Below, piece by piece: positions 11,720 to 25,249 of a stretch of 64,000 bases of DNA; position 1 is the stretch's first letter, and the number at the start of each line of letters is the position of its first letter. The DNA is from Paenibacillaceae bacterium (GTDB taxonomy: Bacteria; Bacillota; Clostridia; Lachnospirales; Lachnospiraceae). Both the position numbers and the translations under genes were made by a program. Below the pieces are notes generated by a model. That model ran no database searches and was not told the origin of the DNA. It worked only from the letters and a program-made list of their open reading frames with translations. The stretch lies in the NCBI GenBank assembly GCA_015057705.1, contig SVDU01000001.1, positions 248,001 to 312,000 on the forward strand, read 5' to 3'.

Positions 11720-13471
11720 TTAATATTTATCGAAACTGTCCATGCTTCTGGCAGTTGGGTATGATGTTTCTTTATATTCGTAGGAGGAGAATGTCTGGTC
11801 ACCTTTTAATATGAATTTGCTGACCTCCTGCTGAAGTGTAACGGATTGAGCTGCAAGCTCTTCACTGGATGCAGAGCTTTCTTCTGCAGTTGCTGCGTTG
11901 GTCTGGACAACCGAGGATACCTGGGAAAGACCCTGATTAATCTCTTCAATTGCGATCACCTGCTGAGCAGAGGCGTTTTCAATTTCCTGAATCGCCTGTT
12001 CTACCAGTCTGGATTTTTCAGAAACCTCTTTCAGAATTCTTGCAGCCTCACTTGCCATGTGTCCGCCTTCTGACACAGCTTCCACAGAATGCATGATGAG
12101 AGTTGCAGTTTCCTGAGCAGCTTCTGCGGATTTAGTAGCAAGATTGCGTACTTCATCTGCTACCACAGCAAAGCCTTTTCCAGCATTGCCAGCTCGGGCT
12201 GCTTCAATGGCAGCGTTTAAAGCGAGAATATTTGTCTGGAATGCAATATCTTCAATTACCTTTGTAATATTAGAAATTCTCTCGGAAGCGTTGCTGATCT
12301 TTTCCATGGCACCATTTAAATTTTGCATGTGGCTGTTGCTTTCCTGCACACCGGTACCGGTCTGATGTACATAGCCGGCTGCAAGGCGGACATTGGTTGC
12401 GTTCTGGTCTGCCTGTCTTGCTACTGTTGCAATGGAAGCATTCAATTCTTCTACGGTTGCTGCCTGTTCGGTAGATCCGGAGGCAAGAGCCTGTGCAGCT
12501 GAGGATACCTGCTCTGCGCCGGTATTGACCTGCTCTGCAGCGGTACTGATCAGAAGAAGTGTTTTATTTAAATCGTTTTCAATCTTACGAAGAGCAAGGC
12601 CAAGAATATCTTTATCGGAACGAAGGGGAACTTCCTGAGTAAAATCACCGTTGCTGATCTCTTCAGCAACTAATACCTGTTTGCGGATTCCATGAATCAT
12701 TTCAGTAAAGGCATTTGCAAGCTGGCCTGTCTCATCCTTGGTATCAATTTCATTTAAATCTACATCTACATGTCCCAAAGCGATCTTTTTAGCAGCCTCA
12801 ACTATCTGAGTGATCGGTTTGCTGATCATTGCAGAAATTCTAAAACTTAAGTAAAGGGCTGCACCAGCTCCTGCTGCTACGATAATAATAAGAGCGAGAG
12901 TCAAAAAGCCTGCAGTCCTATCATTATTCTGGCTGGTATCCTGAGCGGCTTCCATACGTTTTTCAACCAATTGATTAAAATCTTCGAATATTTTGACAAT
13001 ATCATCTTCCTGATCTGTTAAGATAGCAAGTGCACCTTTGGAATTACCCTGTTTTGCTTCTGCAATTGCTTTATCTATGGCAGGTACATAGGTATCTGTA
13101 AACAGCTGTCTTAATTCTTCTGCAATAAGAATCGTATTAGGGTTTGTAATACTGGCCTTATATATATCAAAGCTTTTTAAAAATGTTTCCTTATGGGAAT
13201 TGTATGTCTGTTCCAGTGTCTCTAATTCTTTTGCATCACCGGCATAGACAATCATTCCACGCGAGTCAGCACGTATCTGGTTTAAGCTGGTTGAGGCATT
13301 GATCAGCTCGCGTAAAGGCGCTGTCTGGTGTTCATACAAATATGTATCCATAATATTGATTCGAACCATGCCGACAATTCCGACAATTCCCACAAATAGT
13401 ATAATGGCGATTATACTGATAAAGGCTGTGAGAAGCTTTCTTGTAATGCTGAAATCCTTGAATTTCTTCAT
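11720..13471 (-). CDS. Methyl-accepting chemotaxis protein (4HB sensor, HAMP, signalling domain)
   Basis: 583 residues: TM1 at about 13-35; an extracellular four-helix-bundle ligand domain at about 36-188 ([18 protein letters not shown] resembles 4HB_MCP_1); TM2 at about 190-212; HAMP at about 213-266 ([20 protein letters not shown]); then the long coiled-coil signalling hairpin with the conserved tip [20 protein letters not shown] near residue 405 and [13 protein letters not shown]. It would signal to CheA/CheW; none is in the window. RBS AGGAGG is close to the start. No good sigma-A promoter lies in the 146 bp between the start and an 18-bp inverted repeat at 13618. A consensus promoter inside the adjacent recombinase element would face this gene only after inversion, so phase-variable expression is plausible. 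Confidence 0.93.
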
Positions 13472-13617
13472 ACTAAATTCCTCCTGAGTTTATCTTTTGA
13501 GTAAAGGTTTGATCTGATCTGGTATGCTCCCAATGAATTCTTACAGATGTATTATGAATATAAAATGTGGTCTCTCCCCCCATACATTCAAAGATCCAGT
13601 TTGTGGACACAAAGTTT
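13472..13617. other. Receptor 5' untranslated region outside the putative invertible element
   Basis: Read toward the receptor, this holds AGGAGG near 13480 and no recognisable TTGACA/TATAAT pair. A 70-codon open frame here (reverse, 13473-13685) has no family resemblance and no ribosome binding site, and I do not accept it as a gene. Confidence 0.5.
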
Positions 13618-13635
13618 CGCAGTTTAACCAAAACT
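13618..13635 (-). repeat. Left inverted repeat (IR-L) of putative invertible element
   Basis: CGCAGTTTAACCAAAACT on the plus strand is the exact reverse complement of 15023-15040. The site is an imperfect palindrome (CGCAGTTT - AACCA - AAACTGTG), like the core sites of tyrosine recombinases: two arms around a short asymmetric spacer. It lies 12 bp beyond the recombinase stop codon. Confidence 0.8.
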
Positions 13636-13647
13636 GTGTCATATTCA

Positions 13648-14832
13648 TCAGAAATCCGCATTTTTACTGGAAAGTCGGCTCTCATTGACGGAGTTTATGA
13701 CGGCGTATTGTCCGGTTTCCATGCTGGCTAAATGCATATTATTAAATCGGTCTATTGCTATTTTTTTCTGTTCCATCAAAGAATGAGCATAAATGTTCAT
13801 GGTAATGGAAACATTGGAATGTCCTAATATATCACTGATTGTTTTAATATCAACATTGAGTTCCAGCGCACGGGTAGCAAATGTATGGCGTATGGCATGA
13901 AACTTGCGGTCTGGCACACCTGCTTTTATTAGTATTTTCTTATAGAGTTTCTGGTATGCCCTTGGATCAATAGGGATTTCCCTGCCAGTCATAAAATAGC
14001 ATTTTTCTTTGCCCGAACATTGATAATATTCTTTAAATAATGTAATGAGAAATGATGGCAGAGGAATCTTCCTTGAAGAAGTTCTGCTTTTTGGCGTACC
14101 AATTAGAAGCAAAGTTTTATTATCGTCATCAGAAAAATTCTTTGTCCGGCTAACCGTTCGATTAATAAACAGAGTTTCATTTTCAAAATCAAAATCGCAC
14201 CATTTTAAGGCACAAAGTTCCCCCAGACGTATTCCTGAGTAAAAACACAGGATAATCCCCAGTGTACGTTTATCTGGGCAGCCTAAAACTGCTTTTTCTA
14301 TGAGACACTGCTCTTTCATTGTAAATACCTGAACTTCGTTTTGTTCTGACTTCGGAAATTTTATGTAATTCAATAATTTGATTGAATCAGGATTATTTTT
14401 CAATATTTCTCTGAGGGCAGTTTTATAGACAGCCAGTATCTTTCTTTTATAAGATTGGGAGATAGAATTATCATTATGCATGAATTTAACAAATTCTGAT
14501 ACTGTATCTTCTGCTAATTGATAATAATTACAGCTTGTATAAAAAGGAATAATATATTTTGTTACGCAATGGTAATAGCTTTCGTAAGTAGAAGGTTTTA
14601 CTCTTTTCAAAAGATCGCTGTCCAGCCATAACTCAAAAAGTGATGATACGCTTGCCACAGTTTTCAGCTCTTTTTTTATTTTATTTCCATTTTCCTGATA
14701 AGATTTGATACTATCTTTTACTTCACGGTAGGTTTTTCCATAAAAATATTGATATTTTCCATCGTTCTTTAATTGCCGGCCTTCCCAGCGACCATCTTTG
14801 CGTTTATAAATGTTCTCTCCTCTGCGAGGCAT
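13648..14832 (-). CDS. Tyrosine recombinase (Tn916-type integrase family), probable inversion recombinase
   Basis: 394 residues. The N-terminal arm-binding-type domain (MPRRGENIYKRKDGRWEGRQ) and core-binding SAM-like domain (~60-160) are followed by the catalytic domain with all expected residues: Arg in YSGIRLGELCALKW, the H-x-x-R box in FHAIRHTFATRALEL, His in ILGHSNVSIT and the nucleophile Tyr in MNIYAHSL. RBS AGGAG is near the start. There is no excisionase, relaxase or cargo around it. Instead the gene is tightly bracketed by 18-bp inverted repeats at 13618 and 15023 whose spacers are inverted. Recombination between such sites would flip the segment rather than excise it. A remnant of an integrated element is the alternative. 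Confidence 0.92.
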   Translation of the reverse strand: MPRRGENIYKRKDGRWEGRQLKNDGKYQYFYGKTYREVKDSIKSYQENGNKIKKELKTVASVSSLFELWLDSDLLKRVKPSTYESYYHCVTKYIIPFYTSCNYYQLAEDTVSEFVKFMHNDNSISQSYKRKILAVYKTALREILKNNPDSIKLLNYIKFPKSEQNEVQVFTMKEQCLIEKAVLGCPDKRTLGIILCFYSGIRLGELCALKWCDFDFENETLFINRTVSRTKNFSDDDNKTLLLIGTPKSRTSSRKIPLPSFLITLFKEYYQCSGKEKCYFMTGREIPIDPRAYQKLYKKILIKAGVPDRKFHAIRHTFATRALELNVDIKTISDILGHSNVSITMNIYAHSLMEQKKIAIDRFNNMHLASMETGQYAVINSVNESRLSSKNADF

Positions 14833-14957
14833 ATTGATATTACTCCTTTTCTGGTGACGAGTTTTTTGACGGCGAATAGTTATTATTCAATTAAAATGCT
14901 ATAAATTTTTCGTTAAAGATTCAGTAAATTCAATTATTAATGTTGTTTTTGTTTGTA

Positions 14958-14987
14958 TTGACAAACAATAATGTCGTATTATATAAT
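14958..14987 (+). promoter_or_regulatory. Consensus outward promoter inside the putative invertible element
   Basis: TTGACA at 14958-14963 and TATAAT at 14982-14987, 18-bp spacing, pointing away from the recombinase toward the right repeat. Transcription would start near 14994. As oriented here it meets the hairpin and T-run at 15018-15045 within about 50 nt and should terminate. Flipped, it would face the chemotaxis receptor. Confidence 0.75.
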
Positions 14988-15017
14988 GGATCATGTCGAA
15001 ATTAGTCTGAAAATGGT

Positions 15018-15046
15018 GGCGTAGTTTTGGTTAAACTGCGCCTTTT
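15018..15046 (+). terminator. Terminator formed by the right inverted repeat plus outside flank
   Basis: GGCGTAGTTT, a short loop and AAACTGCGCC, then TTTTT. The closing CC and the T-run come from DNA outside the putative invertible element, so this terminator exists only at the right junction. Confidence 0.75.
15023..15040 (+). repeat. Right inverted repeat (IR-R) of putative invertible element
   Basis: AGTTTTGGTTAAACTGCG, the exact inverse of 13618-13635. With it, the recombinase gene and 190 bp of upstream DNA form a 1423-bp segment. From 15047 to about 15220 the DNA is AT-rich with no recognised element. Confidence 0.8.
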
Positions 15047-15271
15047 TAATTAAATATAGCAATATATTTACAAAATTAACTCTTGTAAAAATTGGGTTTT
15101 AATATACTTATTTGATATTGATTATCGGATCAAATCATATAATCAGATATCATTATAACGATTTTTTGGAAATTTGCTATATCTAAATTTTACCATTTTT
15201 TACTTTAGTCATATTTTATTTCATGATATGATAGAATCAGTGGAACAAATGGGGAAAGGACATCGAAAATC

Positions 15272-15715
15272 ATGGAGACACAGGTCAGATTTTATGATGA
15301 GGCAGAGGATGAGAAGCTAAAGTTTGCAGTAATTATTTCCAGAAATCAGGGTAAATGGGTTTTTTGCAGACATAAAGACAGAGATACATATGAAGTGCCG
15401 GGGGGACACCGGGAAGAGTCTGAAAATATCAACGATACTGCCAGGAGAGAACTATGGGAAGAAACCGGTGCAGTGGAATTTGATATTATTCCATTATGTG
15501 TATATTCTGTGTGCGGTGAGACCAGAGAGGGTGAGTGTTTAAGGGAAGAAAGTCTTGGTATGCTTTACTTTGCTGAAATATATTCCTTTGAAGAGGAGCT
15601 CCATTATGAAATTGCAGAAGTAATCATTACGGAGCAGCTGCCAGAGAATTGGACCTATCCCAATATTCAGCCCTTACTGATGGAAAAGGTCATGGAATTG
15701 GGATTGATATTATAG
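15272..15715 (+). CDS. NUDIX hydrolase
   Basis: 147 residues with a complete Nudix box (GGHREESE...RELWEETGA, residues ~45-68), matching G-x5-E-x7-REU-x-EE-x-G-U. It should hydrolyse a nucleoside diphosphate linked to another moiety; the substrate cannot be told. The N-terminus (FAVIISRNQGKWVFCRHKDR) is the usual first strand. A likely ribosome binding site is AAAGGAC 10 nt before ATG. It is the first gene to the right of the putative invertible element, but the terminator there and a possible TATGAT box near 15223 suggest its own promoter. Confidence 0.9.
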   Translation: METQVRFYDEAEDEKLKFAVIISRNQGKWVFCRHKDRDTYEVPGGHREESENINDTARRELWEETGAVEFDIIPLCVYSVCGETREGECLREESLGMLYFAEIYSFEEELHYEIAEVIITEQLPENWTYPNIQPLLMEKVMELGLIL

Positions 15716-16040
15716 GTAAATGGCATTTGACATGTGTTAGGATCTGTGATATTCTGTTACCTATTAATATAACTGCAGAGGTGGCTATGATGAATCGTAA
15801 TCAACAAATTTCCAGGTTGAATAGGGACGACGATTGATAGCGCTTGTATCTTTGAATGCTCATGGAGACATCATGGAAATGGAAACGGCTATGCTTCGTC
15901 ATGTGATGGAGGTGCTGGAATCCGATTATGAAGAAGAGGACTTGGGCTGGAACGTTTTACCAGCAGGTTACTGGATCAGGATAATGTACGTCTGTCTTCT
16001 CTTTTCCCAAGAGATTTAAACAGAGTGACACCATAAAAAA
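15716..16040. other. Non-coding or decayed stretch after the NUDIX gene
   Basis: Two short open frames (15649-15837 and 15834-16019, plus) occur. The second reads NAHGDIMEMETAMLRHVMEV, then acidic residues, which looks protein-like, but I recognise no family and see no ribosome binding site. The region may hold a decayed gene. Confidence 0.3.
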
Positions 16041-20422: not shown

Positions 20423-23400
20423 TTGAAGAGAAGGAAACAAAGATGTTTTGTGGCATGGCTGTTGACTGCGCTGCTGGTGCTGAACATGTTTCTTCCTGTT
20501 AGCAGTGTTCTGGCTGATGAAGCTGAGGCTTCAGACAATATTATTACAATCACAAACAGTGATGACAAAGCAAGCCCAAGTGAGGCAGACCAGCAGGAAG
20601 ATACCGATCCCACGGAAGAAACCAGTGAAAACGGTTCAAAGGGAAATGATTCGGAGGTTTCTATAGCAACCCCATCTGAAGGAATAAAAGATCCTGGGGC
20701 AACGCCTTTTTTGACGGAGTTTATGCCTTTCGTGGACCAGGCAGCCGGGAATGATGTAACGGACCGGCTTTTAAATGTGAAATTAGAAATCACACAGGAT
20801 GGGAATGACAATGTTGATGGGGGGATCATTGCGGGTAAAGACTTTCAGGTAAATGGTTCCTTTCGCGTACCAGTCGTGGGGGATGGCCTTTCATCTGATG
20901 AATGTGTTGTAACAGGTGATGAAGCGGTATTTAATTTAGATACGAATATTAATATCATTGTTCCGGCTTCAAAGCAGCTGTATCTGACCTACCAGGGGGA
21001 GCAGGTAGGAACACTTTATTTTGAAAGCGGCAGAATTAGAATTGTGTTTGACGGGGAGGTCCTGAACGAAGATGGTGTAGGAAATGTTGTCTGTAAATTT
21101 GCAGCGACCATGAAATATACAGGTACGGATGTGGAAGAAGGAAGTCCTAATGATAAAGTCTTTATTATAGATAAGGAATATACCGTCAAGGCTCCTGAGA
21201 TTCCGGTCACACAGACCCAGGTGAAATCGGGTGAACTGTCTGCTGATAAGACGAAAATCAATTGGAAAGTAGTAGTAAATGCATCGAAAGGCAGTAATGG
21301 CATTTCTTTAAAGGATTATGCATTTCAGGATAATTTAGAAAATGCAGGCGCTTACGTTCCGGACTCATTTAAAATTGGCGATAATTATATCAGCGATGAG
21401 AATGTGTATGACCCTGGCGACAAAACACTTTCTTATACGTTTGACACAGATGTCATCGGAGAACAGACCATTACTTTCACAACAGAGATTCCACCTGATA
21501 CGCTGATCAAAGGTGGTACAATTAAAAACACCGCCCAGTTTGGAAAAGGCGGTACACTTGAAAATACCAATCAGGTTTCAATCCTGATAGCAAAAAAAAC
21601 GTTGATTAATAAAACCGGTTCTGCTGGGGGCGGCATGTCGGGCGGTACATACGATCCAACTAACCGAACTATCACCTGGACGATCACCGTAAACCAGGAC
21701 AAAATTCCATTAGAAGATGTGACTGTAACAGATACGCTTCCCGGTAATCTGATTTGGAAGTCGGCAGAGTGGAGCTGGAATGATGATTCTGAAACGGACC
21801 CGGGAATCCCATTACCCATAACCATCAGTACTGAGCCAGCGAATCATCAATACACCCTAAGCGGTACGATTACCAAAACAGTGAAATTGACCATTGAAAG
21901 TGAAGTTCCTGTAGAGAATTATGTAGGTACCACAACCTACTATAAAAATAGGGCAACTTTAACCTGGAATGGAATGCCTGGCGGGACGTGGTATGATGAA
22001 ACAGGAAATATTGGCATTGGAATTGACGGAATCACGAAGCAGGCAGTTGGAACGCCCGATTATGTAAATCGCCAGATCCAATGGAAGGCAGCCGTTGACT
22101 TAAAAAATCAGACCGGATTCACCGATGTGAATCAGATCAAGGTGTACGATCTGTTGATCTATGGAGATTCTGTGGCACTTGAGGATACCAATTTAAGTGC
22201 GTTAATAGGAACGGACTATAAAAAACTAAATGCAAAATTCGGACAAAGTTTTGTTCCCGGCAGTTTTAACGGATCAGGTTTTTTGACAGAAGAGATACAG
22301 GAAGTGACTGCGGGCGGAGTCGTTGTTGGTGAGTTACTGGCGGTCAGCGGATTCAATATAGATAAAGCCTATAGTTTTACGTTTAAAACCCAGGTAATGG
22401 ATCCAGATATCTTTGCTGCAAACAAAAGCAAAACCGTTTATAACACGGCATCTCTGTATTATGACGGAACACATTTAGATAACGGTGATGCTCAAACCAC
22501 TTACGACAGCAATATTTTAAACAAGCAGGTACTGAAAGCCGGAACGAATATGGCTGGTACCAGTGCAAACGGTTTTAATCCGGAAGATAAAACGGCTGTT
22601 TTCCGCCTGAATATCAATTCGGAAGGTTATGACCTGACTGGAGCAAAGACGAAAAACGGAACGCTTGGCAATGTAACAGTAACGGATGTGCTGCCTGATA
22701 ACTGGACATTTGTTGATCTTTTATCCGATGCAAAATATCAGCTTTATGATGGGAGTAATAACCTGGTCATGGACACATCTGATATCTTAGAAGGTGATCC
22801 TGTAATTTCTGGTAAGACAGCTGAATTTGTGTTCAAAAAGCTAAATAAGGCTTATTACATTCTGATAAAGGCGCAGCTCTCTGAGGAAGGGTATTTGAAA
22901 TACATAGAAAGCGCTTATTCCGGCGGAAAATCTGATTCATATCAGAACGCTACCAACACAGTCAGAATTACCGCAGATAGTGATGCCAGCTGGGTGGCTG
23001 AAAAGTCAGAGACAGTCCAGGTACCTACAGCATTTCTGGTAAAAACCGTGAACAGCGGCAAAAATCCGGTGGAGTGGACAATTAAATTTAATCCATATGA
23101 CCTTCCGGCCTTTAAAAATGTAAAGATTACGGATCAGATTCCGGACGGGCTTGAGTTTTCATTGAAACAGGACGGTTCTCTTGATCTTACCACTTTAAAG
23201 GTCACAGAATATGACAGGCAGGTAAACGGAGCATTTCCTTCCTCAGGAGGGAATGAACTGAATGAAGAGCAGCTTCAAAGTATGATTTCCTACGAGAAAG
23301 CTTCACGTATTCTGAACTTTACTCCGGCAGAGGGAAAACTGTATCAAATCGTTTATCAGACCGAAGTGACCGGCAATATCAGTGCAAAACTGAAGAATCA

Positions 23401-25249
23401 GGTAACGGTATCGGGCAGCGCCATTGATGGCACCGGCACCAACTCCTCTTATACAGTTCAGGATTCACATGCAAGTGCTACCCTGGAACGCAATGGTTAT
23501 CTGGATATTTCCAAGGTTAATGAGTTGAGCCAGAAGCTTTCCGGTGCCGTGTTCACGTTGTATTCAGATCGGGAACTTCAAAATCCTGTTTGTAACAGCT
23601 CTGTGCGTACAGATGGTACACTGCGGATTGTTCCGATTCCTGCACCTCGAAATTTTGGAGACCCTGAATTTACCTATTATTTAAAGGAAACAACAGTTCC
23701 ACCCGGTTATGAATCAGATAATATGGTTTATACTGTGACTGTCAGAAAGGGGTCCGATAATAAAGCGGTCACTACGGTTTCTGGAAAAACGCCGGGAGCG
23801 ATTCTCACCGTGATGAATTACCCAATTAACAGTGTCACCAGACTGTCAATTGACAAGACAGTAAAAGGCAATGGGGCAAGTACCTCAGATGCCTTTGATT
23901 TCACCATTGATTTCACTGGAGGAAGTGTTGACGGCATCTATAATTACATCGGTTCCGGAGGCAAGGAAAACGGCCAGCTGACAATCAGCGGCAACCGTGG
24001 GACGTTCCAGCTTAAGGACAAAGAAGGGATTTCCATAACCGGACTTCCGGACGGTGCTTCCTACCAGATTAGTGAAGCAGATTCCGGTAACGGATATGTA
24101 ACTTCCAGCACAGGAGAATCCGGTTCCATCAAAGTCGGACAGACCATGACAGCCTCCTTTATCAATACAAAGTGGCTGCCCGGAAGTCTGACCATCAAAA
24201 AAACAGTTGCCGGTAATGCAGAGAAAAATATAAAGTTCGATTTCACTGTAACGTTTACAAAACCGGATGGTACGCCGGATAACGGCGGGTACGAATATTC
24301 CGGGTCAGGTGAGAGCGGAACGATTAGCAGTGGCGGTCATATATTCCTCGCCCATGGCCAAAGCATCACCATAACAGGGCTGCCAAAGGATACTGTTTAC
24401 ACTGTAAATGAAAATAATGATTCCCAGAACGGCTATGTGATGAACTCCAATCATGAGACCGGCACAATTATCACAAATGAAAATCAGACTGCCTCATTTG
24501 TGAACACGAAATGGCTGCCTGGAAGCCTGACTGTCAGCAAAACGGTTGCAGGAAGCGGAGGTGATATAAAAAAGAAGTTTGATTTCACCGTGACTTTCAC
24601 GGCAGAGGGTTCCTATACCTACACAGGAAATGGCGTTAGTGGAGGGACAATTCAGAGCGGAGATAAAATTTCTCTTGCTGACGGGGAAAGCATCACTATC
24701 ACAGGACTACCGGACGGCACGAAATATCAGGTGACAGAAGCTGATTATAGGTTGCAAGGGTATACTGCCGCCTCCACAGGAGGAAGCGGAACGGTGGACA
24801 CTCTTACCACATCAGTGGCTATGTTTACCAACACTTACATCAATGAATCCAGAAGCGGTGGCGGTGGAAGCAGTGGTGGAGGTCCAAAAGTATCCCCGCC
24901 GAAGCCCACGGATCCGGCACAATCAGAGGTAACAGTCGTCAATACGCCAAAAACCAGAGAAGAGATGACCCCTCAGGAGTTGTATGACATATACGGGGAG
25001 GTACCTCTCGGCTACATGGTTGGCCCGGACAATCATGTTTATACCCCTCAGCAGTTATACGAAATCTGGGGGCAGGTGCCGCTTGGCTATATGGCAGGCT
25101 CTGACGCACAGCAGCATCCTGGGAGATTGCCCAAAACCGACGATCGCAGATCTGTAAATAAGATTGCATTATGGCTGTTTACCATCTCAGCACTTTCAGG
25201 CATAGTAGTCATACGTATGAATTTAAAGAGAAAGCACGTTGCTGAATAA
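20423..25249 (+). CDS. Large cell-wall-anchored adhesin with isopeptide-type and SpaA-type domains
   Basis: 1608 residues. TTG start with AGGAGG at 20409-20414. Signal peptide ~1-34 (VAWLLTALLVLNMFLPVSSV), acidic Ser/Thr linker to ~110, then a series of beta-rich adhesin/fimbrial domains (~110-1020; recurring VTDTLPGNL, VTDVLPDNW, ITDQIPDGL segments). A SpaA/Cna-B domain follows at ~1023-1130 (YLDISKVNELSQKLSGAVFT), then three ~113-residue repeats at ~1141, 1254 and 1368 (each begins K-TV-G and ends with TASFINTKWLPGS or similar), a Gly-rich linker, and two tandem 21-residue repeats ending PLGYM-GxD. The sorting signal is LPKTD (~1568), then a hydrophobic helix and RMNLKRKHVAE. The D after LPKT, where sortase substrates have G, is unusual. 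Confidence 0.9.
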   Translation: MKRRKQRCFVAWLLTALLVLNMFLPVSSVLADEAEASDNIITITNSDDKASPSEADQQEDTDPTEETSENGSKGNDSEVSIATPSEGIKDPGATPFLTEFMPFVDQAAGNDVTDRLLNVKLEITQDGNDNVDGGIIAGKDFQVNGSFRVPVVGDGLSSDECVVTGDEAVFNLDTNINIIVPASKQLYLTYQGEQVGTLYFESGRIRIVFDGEVLNEDGVGNVVCKFAATMKYTGTDVEEGSPNDKVFIIDKEYTVKAPEIPVTQTQVKSGELSADKTKINWKVVVNASKGSNGISLKDYAFQDNLENAGAYVPDSFKIGDNYISDENVYDPGDKTLSYTFDTDVIGEQTITFTTEIPPDTLIKGGTIKNTAQFGKGGTLENTNQVSILIAKKTLINKTGSAGGGMSGGTYDPTNRTITWTITVNQDKIPLEDVTVTDTLPGNLIWKSAEWSWNDDSETDPGIPLPITISTEPANHQYTLSGTITKTVKLTIESEVPVENYVGTTTYYKNRATLTWNGMPGGTWYDETGNIGIGIDGITKQAVGTPDYVNRQIQWKAAVDLKNQTGFTDVNQIKVYDLLIYGDSVALEDTNLSALIGTDYKKLNAKFGQSFVPGSFNGSGFLTEEIQEVTAGGVVVGELLAVSGFNIDKAYSFTFKTQVMDPDIFAANKSKTVYNTASLYYDGTHLDNGDAQTTYDSNILNKQVLKAGTNMAGTSANGFNPEDKTAVFRLNINSEGYDLTGAKTKNGTLGNVTVTDVLPDNWTFVDLLSDAKYQLYDGSNNLVMDTSDILEGDPVISGKTAEFVFKKLNKAYYILIKAQLSEEGYLKYIESAYSGGKSDSYQNATNTVRITADSDASWVAEKSETVQVPTAFLVKTVNSGKNPVEWTIKFNPYDLPAFKNVKITDQIPDGLEFSLKQDGSLDLTTLKVTEYDRQVNGAFPSSGGNELNEEQLQSMISYEKASRILNFTPAEGKLYQIVYQTEVTGNISAKLKNQVTVSGSAIDGTGTNSSYTVQDSHASATLERNGYLDISKVNELSQKLSGAVFTLYSDRELQNPVCNSSVRTDGTLRIVPIPAPRNFGDPEFTYYLKETTVPPGYESDNMVYTVTVRKGSDNKAVTTVSGKTPGAILTVMNYPINSVTRLSIDKTVKGNGASTSDAFDFTIDFTGGSVDGIYNYIGSGGKENGQLTISGNRGTFQLKDKEGISITGLPDGASYQISEADSGNGYVTSSTGESGSIKVGQTMTASFINTKWLPGSLTIKKTVAGNAEKNIKFDFTVTFTKPDGTPDNGGYEYSGSGESGTISSGGHIFLAHGQSITITGLPKDTVYTVNENNDSQNGYVMNSNHETGTIITNENQTASFVNTKWLPGSLTVSKTVAGSGGDIKKKFDFTVTFTAEGSYTYTGNGVSGGTIQSGDKISLADGESITITGLPDGTKYQVTEADYRLQGYTAASTGGSGTVDTLTTSVAMFTNTYINESRSGGGGSSGGGPKVSPPKPTDPAQSEVTVVNTPKTREEMTPQELYDIYGEVPLGYMVGPDNHVYTPQQLYEIWGQVPLGYMAGSDAQQHPGRLPKTDDRRSVNKIALWLFTISALSGIVVIRMNLKRKHVAE

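Follow-up and report, generated by a model that had tools for sequence, protein, structure and literature searches.

Does a lone recombinase gene that lies between two inverted copies of a short repeat, next to a chemoreceptor gene, belong to a switch for that receptor, to a small mobile element, or to a gene that merely has a terminator at either end? The question is raised by a locus in a window of 64,000 nucleotides, the whole stretch of DNA that was analyzed, from a Lacrimispora genome. An earlier note on the sequence had read the locus as a self-contained invertible promoter that faces away from the receptor as sequenced, and this reading has been strengthened by the conservation of its parts, by opposite orientations and flipped-junction relatives, and by junctions and breaks in genome assemblies. 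It is very likely that the 1423-bp segment between the repeats is an autonomous invertible promoter cassette for the adjacent chemoreceptor.

Table 1. Features of the putative switch and its flanks, in window coordinates
Feature	Position	Strand	Remarks
Target chemoreceptor gene	11720..13471	-	583 aa; 4HB_MCP_1, HAMP, MCPsignal
Receptor ribosome binding site	13480..13485	-	AGGAGG, by eye
D site	13618..13638	-	left recombination site; core 13618-13635, spacer AACCA
Tyrosine recombinase gene	13648..14832	-	394 aa; long ORF between the sites; PF00589, E 7.6e-27
Second GCCGTCA-N6-YCGTCA motif	13686..13704	-	orientation as the first; within the 3' end of the recombinase gene
GCCGTCA-N6-YCGTCA motif	14855..14873	-	5' of the recombinase start; putative arm-type site
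Outward promoter TTGACA-18-TATAAT	14958..14987	+	inside the segment; points away from the receptor as sequenced
Terminator-like hairpin and T-run	15018..15047	+	U site plus outside DNA (closing CC, T-run); by scan
U site	15020..15040	+	right recombination site; core 15023-15040
Nudix hydrolase gene	15272..15715	+	opposite flank from the receptor

The two 18-bp cores are exact inverted copies, as had been claimed: the left one is CGCAGTTTAACCAAAACT and the right one its reverse complement (Table 1), and the segment is thereby bounded as expected of an inverton. Each site also has, by eye, the imperfect palindrome described before, with 8-bp arms matched at 7/8 pairs around a 5-bp spacer. Within the window the D and U cores are the only matches to the 18-mer with up to three mismatches (shuffled sequences give a mean of 0.05), and they are the only two matches with 0-2 mismatches in the 4.53-Mb genome, so the 18-mer is not the common repeat that the earlier note would have counted against its own reading. 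Allowing three mismatches adds five genomic matches, the same number as the reversed control pattern. A search of positions 13000-16000 against Rfam gave nothing at the gathering threshold. The Nudix hydrolase gene lies within 1500 bp of eight of the 14 orthologous loci described below and not within that distance of the other six, one of which is cut by a contig end; it is probably outside the switch. Elsewhere in the window, positions 20423-25249 encode a 1608-residue repeat-rich protein with a signal-like N-terminus and, by eye, an LPKTD-like C-terminal end, probably a cell-wall-anchored surface protein.

The long frame between the sites is a tyrosine recombinase gene, in agreement with the earlier description. 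Catalysis in tyrosine recombinases depends on an arginine, an HxxR motif, a histidine and a tyrosine, and the PF00589 catalytic domain found here contains all of them: R202, H312-x-x-R315, H338 and Y348 are invariant in 27 aligned sequences. The recombinase is under purifying selection, with a dN/dS of 0.06-0.10 in eight pairs. Its best match by sequence among solved structures is PDB 6emy, named 'Int protein' (E 4.7e-15, residues 128-362), which we take to be a transposon integrase.

A scan recovered the outward promoter proposed in the earlier note as a 12/12 match, the sole one of that quality in 13400-15300, where the next best scores 10/12; promoter-like sites of all grades number eight there, against 9.6 expected from shuffles. 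The segment therefore has an internal promoter that could face the target gene in one orientation, as expected of an inverton. The scan also detects the terminator-like hairpin, at 15018-15042 and with its T-run, that was thought to stop this promoter as sequenced. Between 13471, where the receptor starts, and the left site it finds no promoter-like site, in keeping with the claim that the receptor has a good ribosome binding site and no visible promoter of its own there. In the OFF orientation a hairpin followed by at least five T in eight bases is present at 13/15 loci, the exceptions being one cut by its contig end (L015) and one without a T-run (L016). The proposal that the flipped junction loses the T-run holds in part: at computed ON junctions the hairpin weakens to about -7 kcal/mol, against about -13 kcal/mol OFF at most loci, and the T-run is interrupted, but 5/15 of them still pass the loose count of five T in eight bases. 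The OFF state may be leaky, because the recombinase and receptor genes are co-directional and the scan found no terminator between them; transcription of the receptor by read-through from the recombinase is possible.

How far this arrangement is conserved was examined in 25 Lacrimispora genomes (G000-G024, of which G000 is the window's own). All 25 encode at least one recombinase homolog of at least 52% identity, and 14 (loci L003-L016) contain the orthologous cassette with the receptor downstream in the same direction; in these 14 genomes the core is present at both ends of a recombinase whose identity falls as low as 61%. A 17-bp version of the motif occurs in 15/25 genomes, against no match for the reversed control; in G005, G001 and G022 the D site departs from the 17-mer at one base. 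Conservation across the orthologous loci extends to the outward promoter and the bases that follow it. Of 391 Clostridia genomes searched for close relatives at E of at most 1e-90, three matched, two of them Lacrimispora. In L. algidixylanolytica (G007, loci L014/L043) the 3' end of the recombinase and the D site occur a second time about 400 bp further along, ahead of the receptor.

The spacers of the sites are informative. Across 22 autonomous cassettes from the clade around the window recombinase, which were picked for having repeats (two more G017 cassettes were left out, and 15 recombinases without repeats lie outside this count), the U spacer equals the D spacer in 22/22, and spacers vary between loci. 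In the MCP1-type cassette nine genomes have the spacer AACCA and five AACTA, and in the cassette of a second receptor both ends read ATTCA in G024 and ATCCA in G021. Spacers that are identical within a locus and different between loci fit strand exchange and do not fit two terminators. The same cassettes contain a CCGTCA-containing motif 5' of the recombinase start in 22/22 and near the stop in 21/22, and we regard the GCCGTCA-type motif as a putative arm-type binding site. As a genome-wide marker GCCGTCA-N6-YCGTCA is weak, with 45 matches in the 25 genomes, 38 of them at cassettes, compared with 30 for the reversed control.

The assemblies show every one of the 14 direct orthologs OFF, and likewise the window locus, which is assembled without a break. 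The earlier note would have abandoned the switch if no relative had the opposite orientation; that absence holds for the direct orthologs and fails in the wider clade. An Intestinimonas metagenome-assembled genome (L109) has a cassette whose D end faces a cheW-mcp operon, which is the OFF arrangement. The orthologous cassette of Oscillibacter valericigenes (L111) has its promoter side towards the orthologous operon (CheW 63% over 152 residues, MCP 58% over 592) and the T-run flank at D, so that the predicted ON form, with its promoter facing a receptor, is seen in this cheW-mcp cassette. It is the one ON cassette among the autonomous cassettes of the clade examined. The other 23 are OFF and comprise the 14 of the MCP1 type, one in G012, three beside dCache-type receptors (G007, G017 and G024), three beside the second receptor (G017, G021 and G024), the Intestinimonas cassette, and one in G275 that adjoins Tad pilus genes. 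These OFF cassettes are not all independent, since G017 and G024 share an identical stretch of 1701 bp; the G017 copy beside the dCache-type receptor is a shortened frame.

A second kind of ON-like arrangement is found in six genomes of the genus (G002, G006, G008, G009, G014 and G015), whose best receptor ortholog, 65-68% identical, has no cassette; none of the six genomes contains the 17-bp motif. The regions upstream of these receptors align with a computed flipped junction of the G001 cassette at 76-79% over 312-339 columns, crossing the recombination point. The unflipped G001 junction aligns mainly on the receptor side, reaching 64 bp into the other side at L205, and promoter-half scores against the six are 148-164 flipped and 30-40 unflipped. 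With the window's own junction the corresponding scores are 121-146 and 39-48, at lower identity. In G012 (L208) there is a match on the promoter half only. The six relatives could be descendants locked in the ON form, or they could represent the ancestral arrangement; if they are ancestral, they would still identify the promoter as that of the receptor, but they would not in themselves demonstrate inversion.

Similar sites are also found without a recombinase. Of 13 further receptor loci, mostly chosen for earlier hints of sites, 12 have an inverted repeat of 18-24 bp that encloses approximately 350-430 bp, too short for a recombinase gene; the exception is a receptor locus on contig C5 of the window genome, where no such repeat was found. 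Eleven of these 12 mini-cassettes have a promoter of the same type directed away from the receptor, and none with a promoter pointing towards the receptor was found among the 12. One core type is present with at most two mismatches in 22/25 genomes, with none for the reversed control, a count that includes autonomous cassettes and single sites. Conversely, 15 recombinases of the genus score 8.5-11.5 in the repeat search, against at least 14 for cassettes, in a scoring that has no null. They include a second copy in the window genome, and the rule that every family member is self-flanked was therefore dropped. This second copy (L040, C10:124563-125672) has no detected inverted repeats and lies, by eye, beside a gene for a 722-residue chemoreceptor that has its own TTGACA..TATAAT-like promoter upstream. 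The idea that another locus, L059, is a flipped form of L040 was abandoned, the flanks of L059 having aligned poorly with the others.

In a tree of 33 hand-chosen recombinases the 15 without repeats fall on one side of a branch with 87/73 support, recovered in 90% of 200 bootstrap trees, and the group is joined at 99/98 to two autonomous cassettes that have the GCAGTATACTTGATACTGCG core; the positions of G012 and G275, both on long branches, are uncertain. Most mini-cassettes have the GCAGTATACTTGATACTGCG/GCAGTAT core type, and the repeat-less recombinase of G001 is preceded, about 230 bp from its start, by one retained site, GCAGTATATTTGGTACTGCG, with the core of one mini-cassette type (GCAGTAT). 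Because of the tree grouping, the single G001 site and the shared core type, the repeat-less recombinases may serve the mini-cassettes in trans. In G010 the core of the mini-cassette is of the other type, and a recombinase to match it was not seen there.

Genome assemblies contain signs of both orientations. In L. celerecrescens 152B (G008) contig C10 starts in the U flank, which leads into the D end of a mini-cassette, and the same U flank recurs at the other end of that mini-cassette (173/174 identical, the one difference being an N); in contig C38 the receptor flank is joined to the same D end (209 bp identical). For one D end to be joined to two flanks, both orientations must be present or the assembly must be chimeric. 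In six genomes contigs stop at site edges, at autonomous cassettes in G004 and G021 and at one mini-cassette in G000, G016, G018 and G019. At the orthologous locus of G021, contigs C16 and C22 both start with the 17-bp core, and C12 starts inside the core of another cassette and overlaps the end of C16 by 1730 bp. At the orthologous locus of G004, C13 starts at the inner core edge, C15 runs to 38 bp beyond the other core, and the cassette interior is absent. The mini-cassette precedes a 684-residue receptor, and contigs end at its core or one base past it in G000 (C30 and C7), G018 (C15 and C111), G016 (C127, with C39 ending 56 bp past) and G019 (C396; the contig with the site of the other flank was not found). 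The split at the core between the end of C30 and the start of C7 in the window genome (L280, L279) is as expected of mixed orientations. By chance, with rounded contig numbers, roughly 1e-4 to 2e-3 contig ends per cassette would be expected to fall no more than 1 bp from its edges. Both sites of this mini-cassette lie on one contig in G003, G004, G005, G010, G020 and G023, and these intact cases indicate that the repeat alone does not break assemblies. The contig ends and the G008 junctions could nevertheless be assembly artefacts.

Among the other explanations, the one that survives best is that the segment inverted once and is now frozen OFF at the window locus. It would account for the 14 OFF orthologs and for six relatives that look fixed ON, but the catalytic residues are intact, dN/dS is low, the sites are exact, and contigs break at the orthologous locus in G004 and G021; we therefore think it unlikely. 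The uniform OFF state of the orthologs and the unbroken assembly of the window locus do suggest that flipping there may be rare.

The wider family bears on a different possibility, that a degenerate or minimal mobile element, consisting of a lone integrase and terminal inverted repeats, was inserted here and has no switching role. We sampled the best 80 of at least 559 confirmed relatives from a genome scan, 75 of them with at least 320 bp of upstream sequence. Flanking U/D repeats score at least 16 in 59 of the 80, the maximum in 361 mismatched pairs being 15; the 59 include four Lacrimispora loci and near-copies (L115/L116; L170/L171/L174). An outward promoter of at least 10/12 is present in 55/59, compared with 14/59 for the opposite strand and 19% for base shuffles. 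The nearest neighbours of the 59 point outward on D and inward on U in 18, outward on U and inward on D in eight, outward on both sides in 23 and on neither in two, and eight have one side without a neighbour. Thirty neighbour proteins (28 of 31 listed and two from L191) were scanned, and the matches included CheW, TadZ, Flp pilus proteins, BspA-like LRR, CpsB/CapC, LytTR regulators, FHA, a Cas12f1-like TNB domain, a replication-relaxation protein, a serine recombinase and an AMP-binding enzyme; six of the 30 had no match. The TNB domain protein adjoins the self-flanked cassette L143, and L135 adjoins a similar protein. In a distant relative in G070 (L028) the inverted arms measure about 165 bp instead of about 20 bp. 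In Pelotomaculum propionicicum (L114:3366-7376) one frame joins most of a recombinase of the family, without its C-terminal end, to a long chemoreceptor-like protein; this could be a damaged copy or a natural fusion, and it was set aside as a damaged copy.

A mobile element would be consistent with a protein of the tyrosine integrase family and with relatives of 33-40% identity that adjoin many different genes in Clostridia and Enterococcus. Integrases of solved structure serve the excision and integration of elements. In contrast to integrases such as 6emy, no mobility genes were recognized beside the window cassette. The features of an integrative or conjugative element or a prophage were likewise not seen: no direct-repeat att site is among the matches listed around L003, where the best repeat is inverted, and no mobility or phage gene was recognized among neighbours judged by eye, of which the receptor and the Nudix hydrolase were domain-scanned. 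The same receptor type adjoins the cassette in 14 genomes, with further shared neighbours in wider loci by eye, the promoter and terminator are placed as in a switch (55/59 and 13/15 loci), and cassettes that have no recombinase retain the repeats and the outward promoter. All of this makes mere insertion very unlikely. That the repeats are ordinary terminators at the ends of the recombinase gene, resembling recombination sites by accident, is scarcely credible: the right copy does form an intrinsic terminator, but the scan finds none at the left copy, the 18-mer occurs nowhere else in the genome at 0-2 mismatches, the asymmetric spacer matches at both sites in 22/22 cassettes, and both junctions of a related cassette appear in one assembly (G008).

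We therefore return to the invertible promoter cassette and present a model for its operation. The encoded recombinase would bind both core sites, with its conserved N-terminus perhaps contacting the two GCCGTCA motifs as well, and strand exchange within the spacer would turn the 1423-bp segment around. In the OFF state, as sequenced, the promoter would face away from the receptor and its transcript would end at the terminator that the U site forms together with outside DNA. In the ON state the promoter would face the receptor, the hairpin would lose its closing GC pairs and the T-run, and transcription would read into the receptor gene, so that each cell would stochastically include or omit the receptor. 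There is strong comparative evidence that inversion occurs within the cassette family; we infer flipping at the window locus, an effect on receptor expression, and the enclosed recombinase as the enzyme responsible. The GCCGTCA motifs, the mini-cassettes, the ON-form relatives and the recombinases without sites of their own go beyond the earlier reading.

Known invertons that depend on tyrosine recombinases include the flagellar and cwpV switches of C. difficile (RecV) and fimS of E. coli (FimB) (PMC5903667, PMC5386303, PMC9993118). The window cassette resembles them in its short inverted repeats, the promoter between them and the ON/OFF control predicted for an adjacent gene; it differs in enclosing its recombinase gene within the flipped segment and in having a chemoreceptor as its target. 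Hin-type serine recombinases, which belong to an enzyme family unrelated to the tyrosine recombinases, share the internal position of the gene. Hin itself is given as an example of that layout, and an invertible segment of Providencia stuartii is said to enclose a recombinase ORF (PMC5903667). Among inversion signatures reported for Clostridia in 2018 are one near an MCP gene in Anaerotignum propionicum and two near chemotaxis components of C. thermocellum; the portion of that paper available to us describes no enclosed recombinase, promoter or terminator for them, and the comparison with the window cassette is by description only (PMC5903667). Distant relatives of the family may be present in inverton group 139, linked to invertase group 35 (33 invertons, 32 in Clostridia, beside a tyrosine-type recombinase/integrase group), again compared by description from partial text (PMC11892184). 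The term phase-variable is attached to a Campylobacter chemoreceptor paper, as seen from its record (PMC5080441). In the literature searched, mostly outside subscription journals and in part as partial text, we found no description of the window cassette, of the mini-cassettes or of receptor repertoire switching. Inversion near Clostridia chemotaxis genes has thus been known since 2018, and the self-contained receptor cassette with its recombinase inside appears to be new.

Phase variation is best known for surface structures. If the model is correct, the variable trait here would be what a cell senses and swims towards. We slightly favour the broader view that Lacrimispora shuffles its receptor repertoire, with several receptors behind independently flipping cassettes, autonomous or served in trans, giving mixed sensors in a clone, and with some lineages fixed ON by loss of the recombinase. 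The cassette family also suggests that contig ends which fall exactly on inverted repeats in public assemblies can point to active invertons without reads. The cassette family is a compact system of one enzyme, two sites and one promoter in about 1.4 kb, its natural ON-form and recombinase-less versions allow comparison, and it may mark a route from a cis-acting switch to a set of receptors controlled in trans.
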